From: Anaerolineales bacterium
GTDB lineage: Bacteria; Chloroflexota; Anaerolineae; Anaerolineales; Villigracilaceae
DNA length: 42,751 nt
NCBI GenBank assembly: GCA_014379595.1
Contig: JACMLM010000042.1
Location: 1 to 42,751 of the forward strand
Reading direction: 5' to 3'
A program made the translations under genes and the position numbers. Below the pieces are notes generated by a model. That model did not search any database. It had not been told where the DNA came from and was given only the letters and a program-made list of their open reading frames with translations. Below, piece by piece: positions 39,897 to 42,751 of this stretch; the first letter of the stretch is position 1, and each line of letters opens with the position of its first letter.

Positions 39897-41471
39897 CTAT
39901 TTCACTGATGTTCGAATCTGTTCGTGCATATAAAGCGGAACATAATAATGACCGCCCGCATTCTTACCGCTTGAGCCAGAGCCTTTCCAGCCCCCGAAAG
40001 GTTGGAAGCCAGGCCATGCACCTGTCGTTGCGCCTTGTGGACGATTTGCATAGGTCACACCTGCTTCGATCTTATCGAAGAACCAATCTGTTTCATCAGC
40101 GGAGCCATAGAAGCCAGCGGTCAGTCCGTAGTTGACATTGTTTGCAATCTGCATGGCTTCGTCCATGTTCTTCACTTTACCAATCGTAGTAATAGGCAGG
40201 AACATTTCATATTGCCACAAGCGATGTGAGAAAGGCAAATCTGTTACGAAGGTTGATTCGCAGAAAAAGCCTTTATCAAAATCGGCACCAGTTTTTACAT
40301 TACCGCCGATCAGGAACTTACCGCCGCCTTGATTGATCTCTTCGGTAAGATTTTTGAAATCATTATATGATTTTTGATTGATGACAGGTCCGTTGTATGT
40401 ATTGCGATCTGTGGGATCACCAATGACAAGATTCTCGCCAGCGGTCTTCAAGCGAGCAATCAAATCATCGTAAATAGATTCCTCTATCAGCACACGTGAG
40501 GCGGCGGAACATTTTTGTCCCTGCAAACCAAATGCCGAGCGGATAATTCCAATCGTGGCGCGGTCCAAGTCTGCATTCTTGGAAACAATTGCAGCGTTCT
40601 TCCCGCCAAGTTCAAGGATGACAGGGCGTATGTAATTACGTTTGCCCATTTCGCGATGGATTCTCATGCCTACATCAAATGAACCTGTGAATGTAACGCC
40701 GTCTACTTCGGGGTTGTCTACAAGTGCCTGACCAACAACGGAGCCTGGGCCTGTAACGAAATTGACAACACCGTCAGGCAAACCTGCATCACGGAAACAA
40801 TCGATCAACAAACGCACGATCCATGAGGTATCTTCTGCAGCTTTGACAATAACTGTATTTCCCGCTACAAGCGCCGCGCCCATTGGTCCGCCTGTTAAAG
40901 CATGTGGGAAATTGAATGGAGAAATAATTACCCAAACACCGTAAGGTCTTAACACAGAAACATTGCGTGACTCAAACCCAACCAGCGGATCTTTGCCCAT
41001 TTCAACAATGTATCCGCCATTTTTTTCTATTTGATCGCAAGAGTAATAAATAAGGTCGGCAGTTTCCTGCACATCACCCAAAGATTCCATGCGATTCTTT
41101 CCCACTTCCAAAGCCATCGCCGCGCCAAGGTCAAAGATACGTTTTTCAATTAAGCCCGCAGCTTTGCGAAGATATTCCACACGTTTCTGCCAGGGAGTAT
41201 GACTCCAACCATGAAATGCATTACGCGCCGCAGCAACTGCATCCTGTGCATGTTTGGCATTTCCTTTTTGCATCTTCGCTAACACCCAACTCGTGTTGAC
41301 AGGTGAAATATCATCGAACTTTTCATCGGCTATCACGTCCTTGCCGTTAATGAACATGCCATATTCCTTGCCCATGTTTTGCTTAAGTGTTTCCACGGCT
41401 TTATCAAAGCCGGTATGAAGCTCATCGGGTGGGTTGAACATGGTCGAGTATGTAAGTTTGAAATCGGACAT
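39897..41471 (-). CDS. pruA: L-glutamate gamma-semialdehyde (1-pyrroline-5-carboxylate) dehydrogenase
   Basis: A 524-residue aldehyde dehydrogenase that oxidises glutamate semialdehyde to glutamate in proline catabolism. It has F-T-G-S-F-D-V-G (NAD-binding loop), the general base Glu in L-E-L-G-G-K-N, and the nucleophilic Cys in G-Q-K-C-S-A-A-S-R. The N-terminal region with F-I-N-G-K-D-V and the C-terminal F-G-G-W-K-G-S-G are characteristic. The length matches RocA/PruA-type enzymes. AAAAGGAGA precedes the ATG at 41471. The longer frame to 41594 lacks support and enters the promoter region of the divergent lipoprotein. No proline dehydrogenase gene is seen in the window. Confidence 0.93.
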   Translation of the reverse strand: MSDFKLTYSTMFNPPDELHTGFDKAVETLKQNMGKEYGMFINGKDVIADEKFDDISPVNTSWVLAKMQKGNAKHAQDAVAAARNAFHGWSHTPWQKRVEYLRKAAGLIEKRIFDLGAAMALEVGKNRMESLGDVQETADLIYYSCDQIEKNGGYIVEMGKDPLVGFESRNVSVLRPYGVWVIISPFNFPHALTGGPMGAALVAGNTVIVKAAEDTSWIVRLLIDCFRDAGLPDGVVNFVTGPGSVVGQALVDNPEVDGVTFTGSFDVGMRIHREMGKRNYIRPVILELGGKNAAIVSKNADLDRATIGIIRSAFGLQGQKCSAASRVLIEESIYDDLIARLKTAGENLVIGDPTDRNTYNGPVINQKSYNDFKNLTEEINQGGGKFLIGGNVKTGADFDKGFFCESTFVTDLPFSHRLWQYEMFLPITTIGKVKNMDEAMQIANNVNYGLTAGFYGSADETDWFFDKIEAGVTYANRPQGATTGAWPGFQPFGGWKGSGSSGKNAGGHYYVPLYMHEQIRTSVK

Positions 41472-41617
41472 ACGAATTCTCCTTTTGATATTTTTGTAAG
41501 GGCTACTATCAAGTATAGCGTAGGATGGTATGCCCGTCAAAGCAGATAAGAATTGGCTTAGATTTTGTAAGAAGAAGTAGCAATAAGGTATCATTAATTC
41601 AAATGAAACGGAGACCT

Positions 41618-42151
41618 ATGACTATACATCGCTTCTTTCTCTTAACTGTAAGTTTGCTTGCTGTATCAGTAGCAGTTTCCTGCGCCCCAGCAGCAGCTAC
41701 TAACGCTCCAACAGATGCAGTGGTTATCCCTGCTACTGAAGCACCTATCAATTCATCGTCACCCGAAGCCACAGCCTCTGTACCCGCTGAGGTTCCTGTT
41801 GTGGAAGCTGCTGCCACTTCCCGTGGGCCTAATCTCGAAGCCACAGACCCCACTACGGTTAATTTGGCTTCGGGTCAACTGCAACTGGTTGAGTTCTTTC
41901 GCTTTACGTGAAGTACCTGCCGCGCAATGGCGCCCATGGTTCATGGGCTTGAAGCGGAATATGTTGGCAAGGTCAAGTTTTCATATCTTGATGCAGACGA
42001 TCCTCAGACAGATGTTTTTCAACAGGAATTGGGTTTTTATTACCAACCTGAGTTTTACTTCCTTGATGCCAATGGGAATTTGATCAAGAAACTTGTAGGT
42101 TTTATTTCGGAAGACGAGTTTAGAAGTATGTTCAACGAAAGCCTTCAATAA
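41618..42151 (+). CDS. Candidate selenoprotein: thioredoxin-fold lipoprotein with U-x-x-C active site
   Basis: Open from 41618 to 42151 in one frame if the UGA at 41909-41911 is read as selenocysteine (177 residues, Sec98). The N-terminus is a signal peptide with A-V-S-C lipobox and an Ala/Pro/Thr linker. The C-terminal part is a thioredoxin domain: L-V-E-F-F-R-F-T, then UGA, S-T-C-R-A-M-A-P-M-V, and later Y-Q-P-E-F-Y-F-L-D (in the cis-Pro region). The UGA falls exactly at the first Cys of CxxC, giving U-S-T-C with Cys101. A SECIS-like hairpin follows (41932-41948). Homology continues beyond the UGA without a shift, so truncation at 41911 would leave half a fold. Alternatives are a nonsense mutation or sequencing error. 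GGAG at 41610-41613 supports the start. Confidence 0.8.
41932..41948 (+). promoter_or_regulatory. SECIS-like hairpin downstream of the in-frame UGA
   Basis: A perfect 7-bp stem GCCCATG / CATGGGC with a GTT loop. The loop starts 27 bases after the UGA and begins with G, which fits the bacterial SECIS pattern (short apical loop with an early G, 16-37 bases from UGA). A lower helix CCGC (41920-41923) / GCGG (41954-41957) can extend it across an internal loop. It would recruit SelB during translation. Confidence 0.72.
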
Positions 42152-42160
42152 ATAAAACAC

Positions 42161-42194
42161 AACAACCTGCCCGAAACGACAGGTTGTTTCTTTA
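42161..42194 (+). terminator. Terminator after the thioredoxin-fold gene
   Basis: Stem AACAACCTG / CAGGTTGTT around a 10-base loop, followed by a T-rich tract, 9 bases after the stop codon. Confidence 0.9.
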
Positions 42195-42220: not shown

Positions 42221-42751
42221 ATGGATTCGATTACTCACTTTATTGTCTTTATTCTTGGCTTGGGAATTGTTATAGCAACAATTACATCGGCCATTTCTAC
42301 ATTTGTGTTGCCGCGCAGTGCGCGCAGTCAGTTAAATCGCCTGATATTTGGTCTGTATCGCAGGCTCTTCGAGTTTACTTTCCGATTTGTAAAATCATAC
42401 GAGCGGCGTGATGCCATCATGGCATATTTCTCTCCTGTTGCTTTAATGAGTCTCGTGCCAACGTGGTATGTTCTCATTTCACTTGGATATTCCTTCATGT
42501 ATTGGGCATTAAGAGCAGGAGATTATTTCTTCGACTTTCGCTTAAGTGGGTCATCTTTGTTAACGCTTGGCTTCACCGCTCCAGAAGGATATCTTGTAAC
42601 CGTATTGGTTTTCTCAGAAGCCATGCTGGGGCTCATTATGGTTGGTTTACTTATTGCGTATTTGCCGACCATGTATTCGGCATTCTCACGCCGCGAACAA
42701 GCTGTGAACTTGCTTGAAGTACGTGCAGGAAGTCCGCCTTCTGCATCGGAG
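42221..42751 (+). CDS. Channel-like membrane protein, 5' part
   Basis: The first 177 residues of a membrane protein that runs off the window. Helices are at about residues 5-30, 75-95 and 125-150. Between the last two lies a pore-loop-like segment, G-S-S-L-L-T-L-G-F (about 110-118), resembling the selectivity region of two-helix ion channels (T-x-G-Y/F). It may therefore be a channel, but the resemblance is short and the family is not certain. TTGTTT-18-TATAAT ends 7 bases before the ATG with no Shine-Dalgarno, suggesting a leaderless transcript. Confidence 0.7.
   Translation, partial: MDSITHFIVFILGLGIVIATITSAISTFVLPRSARSQLNRLIFGLYRRLFEFTFRFVKSYERRDAIMAYFSPVALMSLVPTWYVLISLGYSFMYWALRAGDYFFDFRLSGSSLLTLGFTAPEGYLVTVLVFSEAMLGLIMVGLLIAYLPTMYSAFSRREQAVNLLEVRAGSPPSASE

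Follow-up and report, generated by a model that had tools for sequence, protein, structure and literature searches.

The locus raises the question of whether a UGA codon inside an otherwise open reading frame, at the first redox position of a thioredoxin domain, is read as selenocysteine (Sec), and what kind of selenoprotein the gene would then encode.

A thioredoxin gene with an in-frame UGA

The window (the whole stretch of DNA that was analysed, 42,751 nt) is the entire contig C48 of a 4.47 Mb assembly, which consists of 72 contigs and is 95% complete. The features around the gene are the following.

39897-41594, minus strand: divergent aldehyde dehydrogenase (PF00171), outside the system
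41610-41613, plus strand: likely ribosome-binding site GGAG, 4 nt before the ATG (by eye)
41618-42151, plus strand: predicted selenoprotein gene, lipoprotein-anchored thioredoxin of 177 aa, Sec at residue 98, stop TAA
41618-41683, plus strand: signal peptide and lipobox (AVSC), lipidated Cys22 expected (direct reading)
41873-42130, plus strand: thioredoxin domain (PF00085), residues 86-171 (Pfam, structure prediction)
41909-41911, plus strand: UGA very probably read as selenocysteine, Sec98 (translation, comparison with relatives)
41909-41920, plus strand: redox motif Sec-Ser-Thr-Cys, UxxC (translation, site reading)
41932-41948, plus strand: predicted bacterial SECIS hairpin GCCCAUG-GUU-CAUGGGC, apical loop starting 27 nt after the UGA
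about 42161-42194, plus strand: intrinsic-terminator-like hairpin and T-rich run (by eye)
42221-42751: membrane-protein-like ORF, cut short by the end of the contig and without a Pfam match

Translation of the gene shows a single UGA, at residue 98, with the rest of the frame open up to the TAA. As originally predicted, this codon takes the first redox position of a U-S-T-C motif, and thioredoxin homology continues unshifted beyond it, the PF00085 match spanning the UGA. The terminator noted after the gene would correspond to the terminator-like hairpin listed above. The product is very likely a selenoprotein in which the UGA at residue 98 is read as selenocysteine. The frame, the conservation of the UGA, the interchange of Sec and Cys, the machinery, the SECIS-like hairpin, the thioredoxin fold and the lipobox were computed, and from them we infer actual incorporation of Sec at residue 98.

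Conservation of the UGA among relatives

The search for homologues covered 61 genomes, this one and 60 relatives. A close homologue is present in 31 of the 37 same-genus genomes (own included), each with exactly one TGA in the match, and all 31 sites read U-x-x-C; the remaining six gave weak matches only and no close homologue. Outside the genus, eight genomes of the same order carry a close TGA form, at nine sites (two of them in G041), and a Cys form is found in G044 and G057 (WCSTC and WCAVC). The copy in G050 (L056) is frame-broken, has its UGA in another frame, and stands outside both the Sec and the Cys counts.

A scan of named genomes gave 146 relatives, and U-x-x-C is present at all of the 80 best-scoring loci that were taken further. 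At 78 of these the Sec motif was recognised by pattern (79 sites, with two in L133), and L102 and L145 (VEIF/VELF) were read directly. The record titles name Chloroflexi, Chloroflexota, Anaerolineales/Anaerolineae/Anaerolineaceae/Anaerolinea, Villigracilaceae, Brevefilum, Desulfolinea, Thermoflexales and Herpetosiphon, all of which, Herpetosiphon included, we take to be Chloroflexota. Downstream of the UGA, 1015 of 1666 substitutions (61%) fall at third codon positions, as in a translated frame. A Sec-containing, membrane-anchored thioredoxin had been expected to be unusual; on these counts it is common in this group.

Tandem Sec-thioredoxin genes occur in L046 at 1467 and 2007 (G041:C719) and also in L133, the second gene being the more diverged. 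A frame beginning FDF in L171 is a chance frame and was dropped.

Selenocysteine machinery and exchange of Sec and Cys

The genome was checked for selA, selB, selC and selD, and all four are present. The tRNA-Sec scores 64.6 bits, over the cut-off, and ARAGORN reports it as SeC with anticodon tca; SelA (550.6 bits), SelB (342.4 bits) and SelD (345.1 bits) are each over the family cut-off. The SelD frame has its own in-frame TGA and reads CAG-U. The homologues, too, agree with the original prediction, as the Cys forms have their Cys at the exact position of the UGA.

In a class sample of 298 genomes, 225 have a tRNA-Sec and 70 match the family at a threshold of E 1e-15. By best match, 57 of the latter are Sec-form genomes (mostly judged by '1 TGA' inside the match) and 13 are Cys-form genomes; all 13 Cys-form sites were read directly and show Cys, many of them in distant relatives. 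A tRNA-Sec is present in 56 of the 57 Sec-form versus five of the 13 Cys-form genomes (Fisher p 1.1e-6, uncorrected for kinship), and the lone Sec-form genome without a detected tRNA-Sec, G321, is 69% complete. Some genomes have both forms, for example G322 (TGA match).

The fit is weaker in the set of 60 relatives, where 33 of the 39 genomes with the UGA gene have a tRNA-Sec and none was detected in the other six (G014, G017, G031, G035, G036 and G043). Of these, four have SelB over the cut-off, G017 has a SelB split between adjacent frames, and neither tRNA-Sec nor SelB was detected in G014, which is 71% complete. A tRNA-Sec is still present in four of the six genomes of the genus that lack the gene.

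Within one genus, L169 (G157) has Sec together with a tRNA-Sec and L152 (G294) has Cys without one, and the two are sisters in the tree (SH-aLRT 98). The forks that place the Cys forms L053 and L054 among Sec forms have modest support. In the tree, of 60 rows and 92 columns, 13 branches are starred and many forks are open.

A SECIS-like hairpin behind the UGA

Counted from the U of the UGA, nucleotides 24-30 pair with 34-40 around a small loop. The published bSECIS model, as given in a figure legend, has a loop of 3-9 nt, a stem of 4-16 bp, a G in the first two loop positions, a distance of 16-37 nt from the UGA and an energy of -7.5 kcal/mol or lower (PMC13188914). These constraints were applied by our own script, to unbroken stems only. 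A search for a bSECIS behind the UGA had been proposed, and the script accepts the hairpin at 41932-41948 (loop 3, stem 7 bp, G first, 27 nt, -9.9 kcal/mol). Of the 81 named Sec sites, 72 pass and nine miss the strict, energy-bearing model; among the controls, it is passed by 29 of the window's 1796 TGA triplets and, for synonymous resamples drawn from 79 of the sites, by 132 of 1580. A search with Rfam SECIS_1 (RF00031) gave zero matches in the genome and equally zero in every control genome.

Taken alone, the hairpin region of the window is no more stable than its synonymous versions (z 0.0), so the case for the hairpin rests on comparison. In 42 Sec sites (31 same-genus, nine same-order, and the paralogues L058 and L061) five of the six core pairs are intact throughout and the sixth, outermost pair in 40. 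Thirty-two sites have the loop GGUUC and eight have CGUGC; loop positions 2-3 are GU in every one of the 42. Four of the six core pairs are kept at the Cys sites L053 and L054. In a subset of 23 of the Sec sites, 98.6% of the cells pair and there are seven compensatory (double-change) cells, values that none of 500 shuffles reaches, and the same holds for the covariation score; two-sided changes at three pairs are reached by nine of the 500. The count of further pair types is reached by 489 of the 500 shuffles, so this measure gives no support to the hairpin.

The consensus energy of 40 sequences is -12.74, versus a null mean of -10.97 (sd 0.22) from codon swaps made only between sequences with the same residue in the column, and none of 200 nulls reaches it. 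The covariation readout of the codon-permutation script (0.68 vs a null mean of 0.11, with 200 of 200 nulls at or below it) has an ambiguous sign convention and is not counted as evidence. At three of the four hairpin codons that allow such a test, all 31 genus members have the identical codon; the 58 comparison codons have a mean modal share of 0.62, and one of them is also frozen. In a more distant set, seven of 20 Sec sites pass the strict model and all 20 keep five or six of the six core pairs; among the Cys sites, one of 14 passes (L157) and four of 14 keep five or six pairs (L146, L150, L152 and L157). A lower stem, 11-14 with 20-23, is also visible in the consensus fold.

Alternatives to selenocysteine

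In metagenome assemblies a lone stop that interrupts an open frame can result from an error, and the window gene has just such a single stop, so that a true TGC or TGT, or a broken gene, has to be considered. The same codon, however, recurs in the 31 same-genus genomes and at the 80 named loci (the best 80 of 146), which by record title come from many projects, and change downstream of the UGA is biased to third codon positions. A pseudogene or sequencing error is rejected on both grounds, the independent assemblies and the third-position bias, and we regard it as extremely improbable.

The UGA could also be decoded as another amino acid, by general readthrough or by a reassigned code such as one for Trp or Gly. 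In favour of this, UGA is a rare stop in the window, where it ends two of the 27 ORFs of at least 200 aa, each time with another stop two codons on. RF2 was, furthermore, not found in the 95% complete assembly: the search for prfB gave only an RF1-type protein, with the PAT motif, and an ArfB-like protein, at L201 (C15:10300-11600) and L202. The missing RF2 is probably an assembly gap. Against reassignment, the same 27 ORFs hold about 12,080 codons free of UGA, something that a sense UGA would exclude, and of 359 conserved neighbouring ORFs in relatives 78 have TGA as their stop; by the counts of stops in the window and in relatives, the original prediction of UGA as a normal stop holds. The UGA moreover occupies the redox position, where the alternative forms have Cys; the hairpin that follows it is conserved, and the genome has a tRNA-Sec. 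The UGA-free ORFs, the TGA stops of relatives, the redox position and the tRNA-Sec lead us to reject reassignment, which is very unlikely, and to keep the reading of UGA as Sec.

Domain, fold and export signal

With the UGA read through, the protein scores 37.7 bits on PF00085 (cut-off 23.5, E 2.2e-9), its best Pfam score; PF13462 is below its cut-off. The TIGR01068 thioredoxin equivalog model gives 34.1 bits, below its cut-off of 96.8, so this is a thioredoxin-domain protein and, by that model, no TrxA orthologue. AlphaFold, run with 25 aligned sequences, gives a mean pLDDT of 83, with ten-residue means of 89 for residues 71-80 and of at least 92 beyond. The first predicted strand (88-94) is followed by a helix from 99, which places residue 98 directly ahead of the active-site helix. 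P144, the Pro ahead of the following strand and a candidate cis-Pro, is invariant in all 25 aligned rows. The closest solved structures, 4ba7 by sequence (E 1.8e-14) and 6h1y by fold (E 5.3e-8), are both ordinary thioredoxins.

The linker between the lipoprotein signal and the thioredoxin domain is rich in Pro, Thr and Ala. A lipobox pattern after PROSITE was sought anywhere upstream within the frame. Of the named sites, 77 have upstream sequence long enough for this, and 73 of them show the pattern. Three of the others (L077, L114 and L132) start right at the end of a contig, and in the fourth, L086, the frame is disturbed upstream. Given this frequency, the protein should sit on the outer face of the membrane and, judged from the sequence, would be lipidated.

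U-x-x-U relatives and paralogues

In samples of 298 and 396 class genomes, seven genomes encode thioredoxin relatives with U-x-x-U: L160 (G264), L161 (G152), L162/L189 (G337), L190 (G404), L194 (G402), L195 (G308) and L203 (G106). All seven have a single hairpin with six of six core pairs, 26-27 nt past the first UGA and 17-18 nt past the second. Its energies are -7.2, -11.0, -7.7, -7.4, -7.4, -6.9 and -10.2, so that three of the seven reach the strict limit of -7.5. A tRNA-Sec is present in all five of the U-x-x-U genomes inside the sample of 298, G402 and G404 lying outside that sample. In the tree, the sister of L160 has UxxC (98), and L161 and L162 group with UxxC forms (98); L190, L194, L195 and L203 are outside the tree. 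These placements suggest that U-x-x-U arose at least twice from UxxC forms.

With one SECIS-like hairpin in range of both codons, one signal could decode two UGAs nine bases apart, and we consider it likely that in this Chloroflexota family of exported thioredoxins both redox Cys can become Sec. If true, there would be a diselenide thioredoxin outside the membrane. Passages of published surveys list UxxU for a Prx-like protein, a metal-binding protein and FmdB (PMC13188914), and the GOS paper has it for the Prx-like family (PMC2398784); in the passages concerned, neither gives it for thioredoxin.

Two further kinds of gene are related to these. The genome itself has a second predicted Sec-thioredoxin, L058 (C32:3401-3694), with VEFFAGY-U-RDC and a membrane-anchor-like N-terminus; its hairpin has five of six pairs and fails the strict model. 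A third related family, with LEFQSPY/F-U-x-x-C, includes L061 (G022:C41) and L062 (G054:C176). Its Sec form has a SECIS-like hairpin that passes the model; L126 and L129 contain its Cys forms, which precede a gene of the window type by about 1-2 kb.

Relation to known selenoproteins

To our knowledge, the characterised Sec-thioredoxins are cytosolic, and Kim 2015 is said to be the biochemical reference for them. The window protein shares with Sec-containing thioredoxin (Trx) the domain family, a Sec at the first redox position of UxxC and a SECIS in the coding region, but its domain is preceded by a lipoprotein signal and a linker rich in Pro, Thr and Ala, and its hosts are Chloroflexota. The DsbA-, DsbG- and TlpA-type Sec oxidoreductases work outside the cytoplasm. 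They have in common with it the thioredoxin fold with Sec in the redox motif, but belong to other families (PF01323, PF13462, PF13098, cd02966), whereas the window protein does best on PF00085 and matches DsbE/TlpA-family models weakly. Its Cys-form class relatives L053, L054, L146 and L152 have the same domain and the same position of the redox pair, with Cys in place of Sec; their hairpin core has four of six pairs in L053 and L054 and five of six in L146 and L152, and no tRNA-Sec was detected in the four genomes.

In passages of two selenoprotein inventories, thioredoxin is listed with PF00085 and UxxC (PMC13188914, PMC9312934), and one or both also list Sec forms of a DsbA-like protein, a DsbG-like protein, a thiol:disulfide interchange protein and a UGC-containing TlpA family. 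Of the original prediction of a candidate new selenoprotein, the selenoprotein reading is supported, and 'new' has to be taken as a new branch of a selenoprotein family that is already listed, thioredoxin with UxxC (PMC13188914). A table in a 2006 survey has seven for thioredoxin and three selenoproteins for Chloroflexi (PMC1794560), and a table on the Sargasso Sea has 11 thioredoxins (PMC1088965). By word search, Chloroflexota, Anaerolineae and lipoprotein go unmentioned in the main text of both inventories (PMC13188914, PMC9312934), and such terms have zero occurrences in the deep-Sep paper (PMC12013277). Among the matches listed from open-licence literature, no title or beginning of an abstract names such a family, though it may have been reported before. 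Three things seem to be new: that the branch consists of exported lipoproteins, that it is spread across Anaerolineae-type Chloroflexota, and that seven class genomes encode U-x-x-U thioredoxins.

Proposed mechanism and role

SelB with Sec-tRNA-Sec would bind the hairpin just past the UGA and insert selenocysteine at residue 98; this decoding step by SelB, SECIS and Sec-tRNA is treated as established in passages of PMC13188914. Export and lipidation at Cys22 would then anchor the product to the outer face of the cytoplasmic membrane. There the Sec98/Cys101 pair of its thioredoxin domain could serve for fast thiol-disulfide reduction, with a CcdA-type carrier probably recharging it across the membrane. 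The genome has three matches to PF02683 (CcdA-type; 68.5, 31.7 and 30.6 bits), the best a 241-aa CcdA-like protein, all encoded elsewhere than the gene.

Across 79 loci (78 named and the window) no operon partner is conserved: the gene stands alone and the genes downstream vary. A divergent aldehyde dehydrogenase homologue lies upstream in 53 of the 79, many loci being cut by contig ends, and the cluster of the ORF at 42221-42751 lies downstream of the selenoprotein gene in 14, window included. Lacking a conserved operon partner, the reaction is a guess, and we infer the direction of electron flow, the partners and substrates, and the reduction via a CcdA-type carrier.

Thioredoxin folds outside the membrane serve many roles, and the selenoprotein might instead be a Dsb-like oxidase or isomerase, a partner in peroxide scavenging, or a metal- or metalloid-binding lipoprotein. 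This variety of roles, the lack of an operon partner that would fix the direction, and a weak match to a DsbE-family model (26.6 bits vs a cut-off of 123) speak for such a function, which is the less likely one. Against it, both the family and the structure searches give classical thioredoxins as best matches, and CcdA-type proteins are present in the genome; on balance we lean somewhat towards a reductant role for the Sec98/Cys101 protein.

A gene caller that takes UGA as a stop would cut the protein at residue 97, so that a common exported redox protein is easily mis-annotated. Its carriers are Anaerolineae-type bacteria whose record titles name groundwater, sludge, lakes and other habitats. 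The finding would extend Sec thioredoxins to the cell surface. It provides Sec, Cys and double-Sec variants of a single fold as a natural series, from genomes that have the machinery and genomes that lack it, and it makes testable what an exposed redox site gains from selenium and pays for it.
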